Below are positions 2,869-28,350 of a DNA stretch of 36,708 nt, piece by piece; the stretch's first letter is position 1; each line of letters opens with the position of its first letter. The DNA lies in the IMG/VR virus record IMGVR_UViG_3300000128_000006, positions 3,284 through 39,991 of that record. One strand, given 5' to 3'. A program made the position numbers and the translations under genes. A model generated the notes under the pieces. The model saw nothing but the letters and a program-made list of their open reading frames with translations, ran no database searches and was not told the DNA's origin. The stretch comes from a virus.

Positions 2869-3591
2869 TTATAGGTTTTCATTTAATTTGGTTAACTTAT
2901 AATAACCTAATTTCGTAAAAGATTCTGAAGTTAATTTAGTCATAGTTTCTTTGACCTTATTTTTTACCTCAACATCAACTTCCTCAATAATAACCGAATT
3001 TAATTTTCCAATAGCCTCAGATTTTAAAGTTTCAAACTTTTCTTCCAAAACTTTTTCATCTTCAGTTAAAATTGACATCAATTCTTTTTTATCACTTTCA
3101 TTTAATGATTCGATATATTTTTTAGCAGTACTATTAACTATATTAACCATAGACTTAAAAGGTACGTTACCAGCGAAGGTTGATTCAACAACAACAACTT
3201 CCTTTTGTAAATTTTCGGAAATAGTTTTTCTAACTTCTATTTTTGAAGTAATATTTAAAACGTTATTAGAAAATAAAGTATCAATATCTTCATATATGTT
3301 TTTAGAATTAGTATTTGATACCCACTTATTTAAACCACTTAGACTTTTCGTATCAATCTTATTAATGGTATTTTCATAAATGGTAATACATTCGTTAATA
3401 TATGAGTCGACAATATCTTTAGAAAGACCTTTATTTGTTGTTAGGCCGTCGTAAAGGTAAAACAATTTACTTACGTTTTTATTTTCTAAAACATATTTCT
3501 TGAAGTTTTTAAATTCTTCTTTAAATGTTTTAGTTTTATATGACTCTAATAAAGTCTCTTCAATTCTAGATTTTAGTATACCAAATTTCAT
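2869..3591 (-). CDS. Helical protein between portal and protease genes, possible prohead core component
   Basis: This 240-residue protein is rich in Lys, Glu, Ser and Leu and looks almost entirely helical. Its N-terminus (MKFGILKSRIEETLLES) resembles the short amphipathic leader peptides on other proteins in this window. T4 carries small prohead core genes (67, 68) in the same place between portal and protease, so a core role is plausible, but no sequence family is recognised. The gene is preceded by an ATATTTATAT motif and a leader with AAACAAAAAACAAG just before the ATG. Confidence 0.75.
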   Translation of the reverse strand: MKFGILKSRIEETLLESYKTKTFKEEFKNFKKYVLENKNVSKLFYLYDGLTTNKGLSKDIVDSYINECITIYENTINKIDTKSLSGLNKWVSNTNSKNIYEDIDTLFSNNVLNITSKIEVRKTISENLQKEVVVVESTFAGNVPFKSMVNIVNSTAKKYIESLNESDKKELMSILTEDEKVLEEKFETLKSEAIGKLNSVIIEEVDVEVKNKVKETMTKLTSESFTKLGYYKLTKLNENL

Positions 3592-14111: not shown

Positions 14112-16148
14112 ATGATAGAAGAAGCAGATAACGGAAGTAGAGAAGAGAAGAAATCTCACTCAGATAGTTCAACACCGGTATTAGATAATTTTAGTAGAGA
14201 CTTAATTAAATTTGCTGAAGAAGGTAAGTTAGACCCTGTAGTTGGTCGAGAAAGAGAGATTACTAGAATTGCACAAATACTATCCCGTAGAAAAAAAAAT
14301 AACCCTATTATATTAGGTGAACCCGGATGTGGTAAAACAGCTATAGTCGAAGGTCTTGCCAATATGATATATAATGGTGATTGTCCAAGAAATTTGATGG
14401 ATAAGAGAATCGTTTCATTAGATATGGGTTCTATCGTTGCGGGTACAAAATATAGGGGTCAATTCGAAGAAAGAATGAAGGTAATCATTGAAGAAATTCA
14501 ATCAGACCCAAATATAATCCTATTTATCGATGAAATTCATACTATTGTAGGGGCAGGAAATTCGTCAGGTTCATTAGACGCTTCCAACATATTCAAGCCG
14601 GCATTGGCCAGAGGTGAGATACAATGTGTGGGAGCCACTACTTTAGATGAATATCGAAAAAACTTTGAAAAGGATGGTGCTTTGGAGAGAAGATTTCAAA
14701 AAGTCATTGTTGACGCATCAACTAAAGAGGAAACTTTAACAATTCTTACTAATATTAAAGATAAGTACGAGGATTATCACAAAGTAATCTATTCTGATGA
14801 AATTCTAAAACTATGTGTGGATTTAGCAGATAGATATGTGACAGATAGAGAATTCCCTGATAAAGCTATTGACATCATTGATGAGGTGGGGGCGAGATGT
14901 CAAGTTGACGTTAAATTACCTGAAATAATTGAACGATTAAAAGTTAGGGCTCATACTATAAAAAACGAAAAAATGGATGTGGTTAAGAAACAAGATTATG
15001 AAAAAGCCGCAAACCTTAGAGATAAAGAACGTAGAATTCTTCACGAATTAGAAAACGAGAAAGGGAAATTTGAGGTTTCCTTAGAAACAAATAAAAAAAT
15101 AGTACCAGTTGATTTAGTTTATGAAGTGGTGTCGAATATGACTAAAATCCCCATTAGTAAATTAAATTCCGACGAAACTAGACAATTAACCGGATTAGAA
15201 AACACTTTAAATAAAAAGGTTATTGGACAAAGTGAGGCGGTTAAAAAGATTTCTAAATCAATTAGAAGAAATAGGTTAGGTATTAAGGACCCAAATAAAC
15301 CAATAGGTTCGTTCATCTTTTTAGGTTCAACAGGTGTTGGTAAAACTCATTTGGCTAAAGAACTTGCTAAAGAGATGTTTGGTAGTGTTGATAGTATGAT
15401 ACGTGTCGATATGTCGGAGTATCAGGAAAAACACACAATTTCAAGACTTATAGGTTCCCCTCCGGGATATGTTGGTCATGACGAAGGGGGTCAACTTACG
15501 GAACAAGTTAAGAATAAACCTTATTCGGTTATTTTATTTGATGAGATTGAAAAGGCAAATAAAGACATTTTTGCAACTTTATTACAGGTCTTAGATGATG
15601 GTCATTTAACCGACGGTTTAGGTAGAAAGATTAATTTTAAGAACTGTGTCATCATAATGACATCCAATATAGGAGTTAAAAAACTTCAAGACTTTGGGAG
15701 TGGTATAGGGTTTCAAACAGGGGATAATAACTATATTGAGGAAGAAAGAAGGGCTGACACACTTAAAAAAGAACTTAAAAAGTTTTTCGCACCTGAGTTC
15801 CTGAATAGGATTGACGATGTAATAATATTTAATTCATTAGGTAAAGATGAGGTTAAACATATCATACAATTAGAAATGGATAAACTCTCTGTTAGATTAA
15901 GTGAAATGAAATATTATATCGAGTTTGATAAAACAATAATTCAAATGTTATCCGAGATAGGTTATGATACCACATACGGAGCAAGACCAATTAAAAGAGC
16001 AATTCAGGATAAATTAGAGGACTTCATATCAGAAGAAGTTTTAGTCGGTAATATAACCGTTGAGGAAAAATACACCTTAATATCTAAGGATGGTGAGGTT
16101 AAGATTAAACCTAAACGAGGACGTGTAACAAAAAAAGGGGGTAAATAA
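14112..16148 (+). CDS. ClpC-like AAA+ unfoldase lacking the N-domain
   Basis: This 678-residue protein has two AAA+ modules: Walker A GEPGCGKT (69-76) with FIDEIHT (Asp140/Glu141), and GSTGVGKT (405-412) with LFDEIEKA (Asp477/Glu478). Between them lies a UVR-type segment [12 protein letters not shown] (from ~295), typical of ClpC. The paired N-terminal repeat domains that bind adaptors in ClpC (about 140 residues) are missing; instead there is a short charged stretch. A loop GIGFQTG (Ile532-Gly533-Phe534) lies where ClpC/ClpX carry the tripeptide that docks on ClpP, so it may feed host ClpP. No clpP is seen in this window. It is monocistronic, with a host-type promoter and its own terminator. 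A role in degrading tagged or host proteins is inference. Confidence 0.93.
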
Positions 16149-22532: not shown

Positions 22533-22540
22533 TATATTTG
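22533..22540 (+). promoter_or_regulatory. Host-type -7 element of the tmRNA gene
   Basis: TATATTTG on the plus strand, 20 nt before the mature 5' end. I see no good TTTG at the expected -33 position, so this promoter is weaker than that of clp or needs help. Confidence 0.6.
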
Positions 22541-22560: not shown

Positions 22561-22943
22561 GGGGGTAACTTGGAATTGACCGGTATTTGTCAATTATTCA
22601 GGGCACGTAGTGAGATGTATTCTATCACTTTAATCTATGAATACAATTTTCAAACGGAAACGTTTTAAATAAGATGTCGGCTGTAGGTTTACTTAGAGCT
22701 GATGAAGTAGCAGTAGCGTAAGACGCACTCCTACAACGGGTAAGTGAGTGAAATACCTAGGAACAGAAACTCCTAAAAAGGTGAATGACCGTTGAATCTT
22801 AAATCGAATGGTCCATCGGTGGTTGTCTAACGATGGTGAAAGACAAGACAACAAATTTCGGAGTATTAGAAAATACTGGCCTAAACGTGTAGTCCTTAGT
22901 AGTTGGGGTATTCGACACGAGGGTTCGAGTCCCTCTACCTCCA
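22561..22943 (+). ncRNA. ssrA: Transfer-messenger RNA (tmRNA)
   Basis: The 5' end GGGGGTA (22561-22567) pairs with TACCTCC (22936-22942) as a 7-bp acceptor with a G3-U70 wobble, the alanine identity signal; the discriminator is A at 22943 and CCA is not encoded. The T arm is GAGGG-TTCGAGT-CCCTC (22919-22935). Pseudoknot 1 is visible: AGTGA (22609-13) with TCACT (22625-29), crossed by TGTATTC (22616-22) with GAATACA (22639-45). A late pseudoknot is CCATCG/CGATGG (22813, 22831) crossed by TTGTCT/AGACAA (22823, 22841). The tag frame that best fits is 22680-22721, encoding AVGLLRADEVAVA and TAA, with the stop in a small hairpin. The exact resume codon is uncertain. It rescues stalled ribosomes together with SmpB, whose gene lies 1.5 kb downstream. 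Confidence 0.93.
22680..22721 (+). other. Putative tmRNA tag reading frame
   Basis: GCT at 22680 opens a frame of 13 sense codons (AVGLLRADEVAVA) ending at TAA 22719-22721. The other two frames stop within a few codons. The final residues AVA differ from the usual ALAA end. The upstream hairpin AAACG-GAAA-CGTTT (22652-22665) lies where many tmRNAs are single stranded. Confidence 0.65.
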
Positions 22944-22952
22944 CAAAAAAAA

Positions 22953-23037: not shown

Positions 23038-23069
23038 CTTGACAATAACATATTTATATGTTACATTTG
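23038..23069 (+). promoter_or_regulatory. Host-type promoter of the large structured RNA
   Basis: CTTG at 23038-23041 (one mismatch to TTTG), 20-nt spacer, TACATTTG at 23062-23069. The predicted start near 23074 is just before the first RNA hairpin ATTAGG-GAAA-CCTAAT. Confidence 0.7.
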
Positions 23070-23073
23070 TCAA

Positions 23074-24001
23074 ACAATTAGGGAAACCTAATAAACGTTC
23101 TTTAACATTTTAGCATTATCCAATAAAACACTTAGGTGTTTTATGAACAGATAATCGGCGGTATATCGTCGTTAAATAAACCATGAAAGTGGTGTAAAGT
23201 GAATTGACTTGTGTTAGTTAGTTTGCGTCTTAAACCCTGTTGGGTTTGAGGTCGAGTATACAAGTGAGATATCATCTAACCTTAAGTATCGAGGGTGACA
23301 CTGTAGAAAAAGTGGTTAGATGACCGGGTAACGTGGATTATCAGGTTGAGGGGGGAACCCCAATAAAAATAACTCGTAGGAATCAAGCAAAAAGTATCCA
23401 TCCAAAGATATGATTGCGGTTTCCAATATAAAAGGTATTTTAAAACCGAAAGGTAAGATAAGTAACGAGTGGTGTCGACATTATCCTTATCAAAGACCCA
23501 CCAAGGTCTTGGTATGAAATTGTCTTGAGATATAGAGATGGGGACATCTCACTGAGTAGGTAGGTATTTTGTGGTTTAATAAACTTCAAAACTTAAGACA
23601 CACCCCTACTTGGAACATCCACAACACACTTAACTAACATTACTAACAAGGTAATTGTATAACAATGATAGAAAAGCAAAAGTGTGTGTCAGGTTTTATA
23701 GAAAGGTGACTACATAGTTATGGGCTGTCCATAGCACATGAGAACCGCAAGTTCGAGTGTATTCTCAAGAAAAACCTCTAAAGGGTCGAACCTTAAATTA
23801 GTCCGCAAGACTGAAGAGAGTTAATTAATGAGAGAGTATATAAAACCTTAAGGAGTGATTAGTCAAACTAATCGTCACTGAGAGTTACTGTTCAAAAGAC
23901 AGTGGAAACGAAGGGAAACAATAATCCTTTTAAAGACTTTCAATAAAACGAGTATTCTCATCGTATTAGCCAAAAACCTCAGCGAAAGTTGAGGTTTTTT
24001 T
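23074..24001 (+). ncRNA. Large (~0.9 kb) ornate structured non-coding RNA, GOLLD/ROOL-like class
   Basis: The interval has no plausible ORF but is bounded by a promoter and a strong terminator and is full of helices. Hairpins include ATTAGG-GAAA-CCTAAT at the start, AAAACAC/GTGTTTT, AAACCC/GGGTTT (23232, 23242), GGGG-GGAA-CCCC, GAGATG-GGGA-CATCTC, GATTAGT/ACTAATC and AGTC-CGCAA-GACT. Long-range helices include GATAATC (23152) with GATTATC (23336), which closes a multibranch domain holding ACTTGT/ACAAGT (23207, 23260) and CATCTAACC/GGTTAGATG (23273, 23314). Many loops are GNRA. Size, GNRA loops and position beside tmRNA, tRNAs and phage genes fit the giant phage RNAs GOLLD or ROOL. I cannot assign a family by sequence. 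The role of such RNAs is unknown, though some form large multimeric cages. Confidence 0.75.
23972..24001 (+). terminator. Intrinsic terminator of the large RNA
   Basis: AAAAACCTCAGC (23972-23983) pairs with GTTGAGGTTTTT around a GAAA tetraloop, followed by a T run. Confidence 0.9.
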
Positions 24002-24071: not shown

Positions 24072-24449
24072 ATGAATTTATTATCAGTATTATTAGGTGG
24101 TTTGATAGTCCTATCTATCCTCGGAATTATTAAATTAGTTTCACATATTATAAAACGTATTACTTTAGAAAAAAGAATCGATGCCGAAATCGAGTCACTG
24201 TCTGATTGGTGTGAAGATATATCAGAAGAGGTAAGTGAGGGAGACAGTAAAGTTATTAGTATTTTTTCACAAGAGATTGAAAGGTTAGAAAATCTAATTA
24301 CCGTTAACAGACAAAATGTCGAAAGGAATGTTGAACTCGAATTAAAGACATTACACGATAGAGTGGACGTATGTGAAAATAAAAAATGTGGTAAAAAGGG
24401 GGGATGTAAACCCGGAGGTTGTAAAAACTGTCAAGACACTAAGAAATAA
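24072..24449 (+). CDS. Small membrane protein with Cys-rich tail
   Basis: This 125-residue protein has one N-terminal membrane segment (residues ~3-26, LLSVLLGGLIVLSILGIIK), a helical, probably coiled-coil middle (ISIFSQEIERLENLITVNRQ) and a Cys/Gly/Lys tail with VCENKKCGKKGGCKPGG and CKNC: five Cys in ~20 residues, suggesting metal binding or disulfides. I do not recognise a family. It lies between the large RNA and smpB, each with its own terminator. A spanin-like or other envelope role is possible but unproven. An A-rich leader precedes the ATG. Confidence 0.8.
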   Translation: MNLLSVLLGGLIVLSILGIIKLVSHIIKRITLEKRIDAEIESLSDWCEDISEEVSEGDSKVISIFSQEIERLENLITVNRQNVERNVELELKTLHDRVDVCENKKCGKKGGCKPGGCKNCQDTKK

Positions 24450-24494: not shown

Positions 24495-24932
24495 ATGGAT
24501 AAATTAACTAATGTGGTCAACAAAAAGGCGAAGTTTGAATATACGTTCATTAGGACGTTAACCTCAGGTATTAAACTAGTTGGTTCCGAAGTCAAATCTA
24601 TTAGACAAGGTAAGGTTTCGATTTCTGAAGGATATTGTTATTTCAACGACGGGGAATTATTCATCAAAGGCATGACAATATCTGATTACGGATATGGTTC
24701 TTCTCATGTCATAAATAGAGATAGGAAATTATTACTAAAACGTAAGGAACTCAATAAACTAGAAAAAGACCTAATTAACGGATTAACAATAATACCTTAT
24801 CGAGTTTTTATAAATGAGTCTGGTTTAATCAAAATGGATGTGGTTTTATCTAAAGGTAAGAAGATATATGATAAGAGAGAAGATATTAAGAAAAAGGATA
24901 TAGATAGGGATATTCAAAGACACCTAAAGTAA
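24495..24932 (+). CDS. smpB: SsrA-binding protein SmpB
   Basis: This 145-residue protein is SmpB, which binds the tRNA-like end of tmRNA and places it in the A site of stalled ribosomes. Diagnostic blocks in order are NKKAKFEYTF, LVGSEVKSIRQGKVSISEGY, GELFIKGMTISDYGYG, RDRKLLLKRKELNKL, GLTIIPYRVFIN, MDVVLSKGKKIYDKREDI and a final DIDRDIQRHLK. The length is near the usual 150-160; the basic C-terminal tail that lines the mRNA channel is short, ending HLK. It lies 1.5 kb from the phage tmRNA. It overlaps the convergent 166-aa gene by 9 bases. A dedicated phage pair of tmRNA and SmpB is inferred. Confidence 0.95.
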   Translation: MDKLTNVVNKKAKFEYTFIRTLTSGIKLVGSEVKSIRQGKVSISEGYCYFNDGELFIKGMTISDYGYGSSHVINRDRKLLLKRKELNKLEKDLINGLTIIPYRVFINESGLIKMDVVLSKGKKIYDKREDIKKKDIDRDIQRHLK

Positions 24933-27842: not shown

Positions 27843-27849
27843 AAATAAA

Positions 27850-28178
27850 GAGAGACTTCGGGTCTTTCAAGGTTTCTGATAATAGATTGCCTGAATTTTG
27901 AACTACTCTAAACCTTTTTTCATTCATCAATAGTGTCTATTATTACAGCTTCACTGCCTCTCTTTTAATAATAAGGGTAAATGTTTGCAACCACTTACCC
28001 TCGCAAATGGACTTATCCTGGTACGCTCGACCGGTAATAAACCAATCCATTAAAGCGTGATAAGTACGTTTTATTTTAATAATAAGACATAGCCACATTT
28101 ACTATATCTCAACTCAGTGACCTCTGCAGTTGTGAATCTGTTTTAAAGGGTTCCTCGGTTCTGAGTTTATTATTAAAA
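27850..28178 (-). ncRNA. Candidate pseudoknot-rich structured RNA between tRNA-Glu and the 47-aa gene
   Basis: No ORF explains this stretch, but it holds an unusual density of complementary segments (plus-strand coordinates): AGGGTAA 27974-80 with TTACCCT 27995-28001, crossed by TTTGC 27984-88 with GCAAA 28003-07; AAGGTTT 27869-75 with AAACCTT 27910-16, crossed by ATAATAGA 27879-86 with TCTATTAT 27936-43; ACTTATC 28011-17 with GATAAGT 28059-65, with ACGCT/AGCGT inside and AATGG/CCATT crossing. TTTTAATAATAA occurs at 27963 and 28074 and both could pair with TTATTATTAAAA at 28167. The helices exist on both strands; I give the minus strand because the tRNAs and genes around it are on that strand. 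The family is unknown. Confidence 0.45.
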
Positions 28179-28180
28179 TT

Positions 28181-28324
28181 TTAAATTGCTCGGTTACGTC
28201 TTCTATTGTCCCAAGCCACTTTTTTTGTACTACCTAACATTTTAAGTTTAGATACCTTATCGTTAAATGAGTTTCTGGTACTGTTCACCTGAGTGTTCCC
28301 ATTATTAGATTGAATTCCTTCCAT
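28181..28324 (-). CDS. Small 47-aa basic protein
   Basis: A frame of 47 codons begins MEGIQSNNGNTQVNSTRNSF and ends with KVAWDNRRRNRAI. It sits just downstream of tRNA-Gln and upstream of the pseudoknot-rich region. Coding is plausible because the frame is clean and the amino acid mix is protein-like, but it is not recognised and may be only a chance frame. Confidence 0.45.
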   Translation of the reverse strand: MEGIQSNNGNTQVNSTRNSFNDKVSKLKMLGSTKKVAWDNRRRNRAI

Positions 28325-28350
28325 TGATTTTATTTTATTTTATTTTTATG

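Follow-up and report, generated by a model that had tools for sequence, protein, structure and literature searches.

A GOLLD RNA encoded beside a phage tmRNA, and the recurrence of this neighbourhood in viral records

Here we report that an interval of about 930 nt in a phage genome fragment is, with near certainty, a member of the GOLLD family, an already named class of RNA, and that GOLLD genes recurrently lie beside a gene for tmRNA. The window, by which we mean the whole 36,708-nt stretch of DNA analysed, is part of a virus record of 39,991 bases (IMG/VR IMGVR_UViG_3300000128_000006, positions 3,284 to 39,991). Membership of the family, covariation in the 5′ domain, a promoter and a terminator, and adjacency to tmRNA were all observed directly. 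The RNA itself is an added member of a known family; the novelty is the conserved tmRNA neighbourhood of GOLLD. A search of the open-access literature turned up no mention of this linkage, although the first description of GOLLD and the paper on Mycobacterium tRNA arrays, which lie outside that scope, may note it; one open-access paper that names both GOLLD and tmRNA treats them as separate host ncRNAs.

Results

A cmscan search of the window against all of Rfam matched GOLLD (RF02032) at 23552-23964 on the + strand with 286.2 bits (E 5.8e-81), against a gathering threshold of 150 bits and over the full length of the model (positions 1-416 of 416). The model spans the conserved GOLLD 3′ domain only; directly upstream lies a structured 5′ domain of 478 nt, which brings the total to the ∼800-900 nt of a GOLLD RNA. 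Neither strand holds an ORF of at least 60 aa between 23005 and 24071, the longest such gap in the window, as the preliminary description had recognised in reporting some 930 nt with no plausible ORF, and the window carries T4-type genes for terminase and portal, which, like the virus record itself, mark the RNA as phage-encoded. For 23074-23995 the predicted folding energy is -248.8 kcal/mol (z -6.9), and none of 20 dinucleotide shuffles was equally stable. A fold so much better than that of the shuffles, together with the Rfam match, indicates that the RNA is real and that GOLLD is the right candidate. The best explanation of the interval is a GOLLD transcript of ∼890-920 nt with its own host-type promoter.

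The preliminary description had offered GOLLD, ROOL or a new class as possible identities, and had proposed an Rfam search and a test for covariation. The search returned GOLLD as the sole large-RNA family in the window, with no match to ROOL anywhere at the Rfam gathering thresholds, and covariation is present across 35 homologues. The GOLLD option thus stands, while ROOL and OLE are set aside for want of an Rfam match and a new class is made needless by the full-length GOLLD match.

The 5′ domain occupies 23074-23551 on the + strand, its start being approximate to within a few nucleotides. In an alignment of 36 sequences (the window and 35 homologues) that runs from the start site through P13, 84 of the 124 predicted pairs show compensatory changes, P13/P14 included. 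A covariance model of the core of this domain (window 23261-23379) recovered the same fold in two very large phages, LR745206 (635 kb, 115.7 bits) and LR756502 (642 kb, 103.6 bits); it did not find the fold in the carriers of GOLLD 3′ domains among Acinetobacter, streptococcal, mycobacterial and Roseobacter-group phages. This restricted distribution, and the position of the 5′ half outside the Rfam model, would be expected if the giant RNA belonged instead to ROOL or to a new class and resembled GOLLD in size alone. Such an identity has next to no likelihood and is already refuted by the full-length 286-bit match to GOLLD and the lack of any to ROOL. Confinement of the core to Bacteroidota-type phages also agrees with the published account of GOLLD, in which the 5′ region is the less conserved (PMC12286853).

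Many of the hairpins and GNRA loops first noticed in the interval are real and conserved, and a conserved stem with a GAAA cap, towards the end of the 5′ domain, may correspond to L11a of the solved GOLLD structure. The long-range GATAATC/GATTATC helix (23150 with 23336), previously thought to close a multibranch domain, did not survive the comparison: across the 36 sequences it shows no compensatory changes, 64.7% of its cells are paired compared with 64.3% in shuffles, and one of its pairs forms in just one sequence. GATTATC belongs instead to a local hairpin at 23327-23342 on the + strand (GGTAAC-GTGG-ATTATC), whose first five pairs form in 36/36 sequences and whose sixth forms in 35, with compensatory changes. 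A candidate alternative helix between ATTATC (23115) and GATAAT (23150) is mostly paired, with little informative variation.

Transcription signals flank the RNA, as the preliminary description had proposed in calling for a host-type promoter and a terminator. Upstream, sequence and homologues together identify a Bacteroidota-type promoter at 23039-23069 on the + strand, made up of TTGACA (23039-23044), a 17-nt spacer and a TAnnTTTG element, TACATTTG (23062-23069); since the promoter ends at 23069, transcription is expected to start at about 23071-23076. Among 37 dereplicated GOLLDs, the window counted, that were gathered from IMG/VR by motif patterns and from relatives of the smpB gene, TAnnTTTG lies 479-540 nt upstream of the 3′ domain in 34; in most of these a TTGAC-like box precedes it and the RNA then begins with ACAAAT or a close variant. 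Downstream, an intrinsic terminator lies at 23975-24001 (+ strand), with an AACCTCA-GCGAAAGT-TGAGGTT stem at 23975-23996 and a T-run to 24001, and close relatives carry a stem of differing sequence followed by a T-run at the same place past the 3′ domain.

The GOLLD RNA env-38 has been solved by cryo-EM as a hollow 14-mer RNA cage, in which the intermolecular bridge B8 is formed by the self-pairing loop L21a, with a reported GC to CG (and reverse) switch (PMC12286853). A hairpin at 23780-23794 (+ strand) with the loop GUCGAA maps to L21a by its position in the model, on which the assignment depends. Its loop in the window carries UCGA, and among the homologues with the hairpin the loop is self-complementary in 39/39, in line with what B8 predicts, as UCGA in 17 and as CGCAA, which contains GC, in 22; two distant GOLLDs have no hairpin of this type. 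Self-complementarity of the loop is consistent with multimer formation without being proof of it. By analogy with env-38, we consider it likely that the transcript would fold into its 5′ and 3′ domains and that many copies would be joined by loop-loop contacts into a closed hollow cage.

The carrier of this GOLLD is most likely a large T4-like phage infecting Bacteroidota. Its TAnnTTTG promoters point to such a host, as does a 5′ domain shared with phages of more than 634 kb; phages above this size form a published clade, the Mahaphages, with predicted hosts in the Bacteroidetes (PMC7162821), and from their size we infer that LR756502 and LR745206 belong to it. Terminase similarity to named phages, at below 30%, is too low to refine the host.

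Upstream of GOLLD, a phage tmRNA gene (ssrA) lies at 22561-22946 on the + strand (Rfam RF00023, 80.2 bits), preceded by a TAnnTTTG promoter element, TATATTTG, at 22533-22540 (+ strand). Besides the covariance match, it has a tRNA-Ala-like end, with an acceptor stem GGGGGUA/UACCUCC that includes the G3-U70 alanine-identity pair, and a tag that ends in small hydrophobic residues: the tag reading frame (22674-22718) ends ...SAVGLLRADEVAVA, with the stop TAA at 22719. The tag ends in AVA in the window and in VVA, TVA, SVA or NVA in homologues, and the phage tags have in common a core G-L-(I/V/L)-R and a VA end (...GLLRADEVAVA in the window). The usual host tmRNA tag differs in ending in ...ALAA, and the phage tags may direct the proteins that carry them to another protease. 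At 14112-16148 (+ strand) the window also encodes a two-domain Clp ATPase of ClpA/ClpB type (PHROG ‘ATP-dependent protease’, 801 bits) with a GSGIGF loop at what we take to be the place of the ClpP-docking loop of ClpA and ClpX, and Clp ATPase, tmRNA and SmpB may together form the phage's own tag-and-unfold route. On a practical level, ARAGORN overlooks the window tmRNA that Rfam detects, and phage tmRNAs of this type may thus be under-annotated where ARAGORN is used alone.

The gene smpB follows at 24495-24932 on the + strand (PF01668, E 4.7e-46; TIGR00086 above cut-off). The earlier placement of GOLLD between tmRNA and smpB is therefore right for the two genes, but GOLLD and smpB are not direct neighbours: the ORF list places an ORF of 125 aa between them (24072-24449, + strand). 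It has no match in Pfam, PHROGs or NCBIfam; its N terminus has a hydrophobic stretch and its C terminus is rich in Cys and Gly (KKGGCKPGGCKNCQ). The relatives that we checked have only a short gap at this place. Elsewhere in the window, between genes for tRNA-Glu and tRNA-Gln, ∼500 nt (27843-28349) hold neither a substantial ORF nor a match to an Rfam family.

Counted over redundant records, which are not independent events and come mostly from one phage lineage, GOLLD and an Rfam-detected tmRNA lie at most 5 kb apart in 97 of the 101 viral records with both, where random placement would give ∼28, and in 34/37 of the contigs of at least 70 kb (∼3.4 expected). Given this redundancy, much of the adjacency count reflects shared descent; 27 of 28 cases remain when near-duplicates are removed from the first samples. 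In those samples, 47 of the 50 records with both have the tmRNA on the strand opposite to GOLLD and downstream of it, at a distance of 137-3341 nt and so within 5 kb, and a further sample selected by GOLLD has a tmRNA within 5 kb in 21/21. A reverse sample picked by tmRNA yielded GOLLD in 30 of 50 records, 28 of the 30 within 5 kb, so the adjacency holds whether records are chosen by smpB, by GOLLD motifs or by tmRNA. The window is the one near case with another layout: here tmRNA and GOLLD share a strand and the tmRNA comes first, ending ∼130 nt before GOLLD begins. In the Roseobacter-group phages DSS3_MAL1 and MD18 a permuted, alphaproteobacterial tmRNA lies 58 and 211 nt after GOLLD, on the same strand and inside a tRNA array. 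In both of these phages a tRNA gene (annotated as tRNA-Arg) sits inside the GOLLD 3′ domain (L248 5630-5703; L249 5629-5702).

These patterns bear on the main alternative, namely that GOLLD is unrelated to translation (housing other phage molecules, for example, or having a role in lysis) and that tmRNA adjacency is a co-inherited neighbourhood of small-RNA and translation genes. In its favour, most long Bacteroidota-type records have an array of 13-28 tRNA genes at 3-20 kb from GOLLD, some isolated tRNAs being nearer; Acinetobacter, streptococcal and 635-642 kb phages have GOLLD beside tRNAs but no tmRNA there; and most counted records come from one lineage. However, the tmRNA of the main lineage mostly lies 0.1-3.5 kb from GOLLD, nearer than the tRNA array, and is on the strand opposite to both the tRNAs and GOLLD; the adjacency persists through changes of spacing and gene content and, in the window, of side and strand; and it recurs with a different type of tmRNA in the Roseobacter-group phages, though there inside the tRNA array. 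Strand, persistence and recurrence speak against a purely passive cluster, with shared descent and membership of tRNA arrays not fully removed, and we regard this alternative as a real possibility.

No tmRNA was detected in four long GOLLD contigs (G074, 214 kb; G103, 140 kb; G054, 115 kb; G113, 109 kb), in a further GOLLD phage with kilobases of flank (G057), or in the GOLLD phages of streptococci, mycobacteria and Acinetobacter. Conversely, some phages with a tmRNA have no GOLLD. Flavobacterium phage immuto has no GOLLD. A second group of phage tmRNAs (G121, G134, G145, G147, G151, G167, G170 and others), with mostly higher Rfam scores, lacks GOLLD. Substitution by some other giant RNA was rejected, since neither a giant noncoding gap nor an Rfam family lies beside the GOLLD-less tmRNAs.

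SmpB was likewise rejected as an obligate partner of GOLLD. The gene follows closely after GOLLD in the lineage selected by smpB. Of the 34 motif-chosen records, 4 carry smpB, in 3 of them close behind GOLLD; the other 30, many of them fragments, are without it. SmpB is present and GOLLD absent in Lak phages and in a 735 kb phage, and in the two GOLLD-bearing phages of 635-642 kb SmpB lies 67-88 kb away. The constant neighbour is therefore tmRNA rather than SmpB, tmRNA itself being missing from some long GOLLD contigs.

Two direct links between the RNAs were considered and dismissed. In a crude test of base pairing between GOLLD and tmRNA, the cognate duplex energy (-171.4) showed no special excess over the non-cognate one (-167.0, sd ∼10). 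A mechanism in which convergently transcribed GOLLD and tmRNA overlap in antisense is excluded as a general one because the window and the Roseobacter-group phages carry both on one strand.

Discussion

We propose that the GOLLD cage would act on the host translation apparatus during infection: as phage tmRNA and SmpB free stalled ribosomes, the cage would bind, store or set aside ribosomes, their subunits or tRNA-like RNAs. Taken whole, as a cage acting on translation in partnership with tmRNA-SmpB rescue, this explanation is plausible, if short of probable. The translation role of GOLLD itself is drawn from its gene neighbourhood and from pull-downs of GOLLD in which ribosomes were reported bound (PMC12286853), and we put it forward tentatively. 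A more specific version makes the cage a phage device within a GOLLD-tmRNA(-SmpB) cassette, where it would trap or store ribosomes, subunits or tRNA-like RNAs and the phage's trans-translation system would rescue stalled ribosomes; in that form we consider it unlikely. The case for a translation role is weakened by GOLLD phages without tmRNA, by tmRNAs without GOLLD, by the absence of special pairing, and by a Lactobacillus brevis prophage in which GOLLD was reported dispensable for phage production, as cited in PMC7567579. The link to ribosome rescue at which the preliminary description hinted does gain support from the conserved GOLLD-tmRNA adjacency; its hint at packaging finds none here.

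In a second alternative the cage stores or protects the phage's tRNAs or tmRNA rather than acting on ribosomes. The tRNA genes within the 3′ domains of DSS3_MAL1 and MD18 fit this, as do the proposal that linker tRNAs are cargo (PMC12286853) and the place of tmRNA as the conserved neighbour of GOLLD; against it, the window GOLLD has no internal tRNA and a short, A/U-rich linker, and it shows no special complementarity to tmRNA. We think storage of this kind improbable.

The cage structure of GOLLD is already solved. That one neighbour is conserved in two unrelated phage groups, of which one has a tmRNA of different structure, directs the search for a function towards translation and ribosome rescue, and the GOLLD-tmRNA partnership offers a testable hint on what the cage does. 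DSS3_MAL1 (by its name probably on Ruegeria pomeroyi) and MD18 (on Phaeobacter inhibens) are phages of laboratory hosts in which the idea can be tested. If true, a GOLLD-tmRNA(-SmpB) cassette would give GOLLD its first assigned function and would represent a new type of compartment made of RNA alone.

Among known systems, ROOL is likewise a giant cage-forming phage RNA often found near tRNA islands (PMC12286853), but the window has no Rfam ROOL match. The translation-takeover sets of huge phages, comprising tRNAs, tmRNA and SmpB (PMC7162821), resemble the gene set of the window phage, which has tRNAs, tmRNA, SmpB and a Clp-type ATPase; where that paper deals with tmRNA and SmpB, GOLLD goes unmentioned. 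The closest counterpart is GOLLD env-38 (PMC12286853), which the window RNA resembles in its full-length 3′-domain match, its length of ∼900 nt, its layout of 5′ and 3′ domains with a variable linker, its self-complementary L21a loop, and its setting in a phage genome with tRNA genes nearby. It differs from env-38 in a conserved tmRNA adjacency (with smpB added in one sub-lineage) of which we saw no mention in the open-access literature, in a 5′ core whose type was confined, in our searches, to Bacteroidota-type phages, the two of 635-642 kb included, and in having its own TAnnTTTG promoter.
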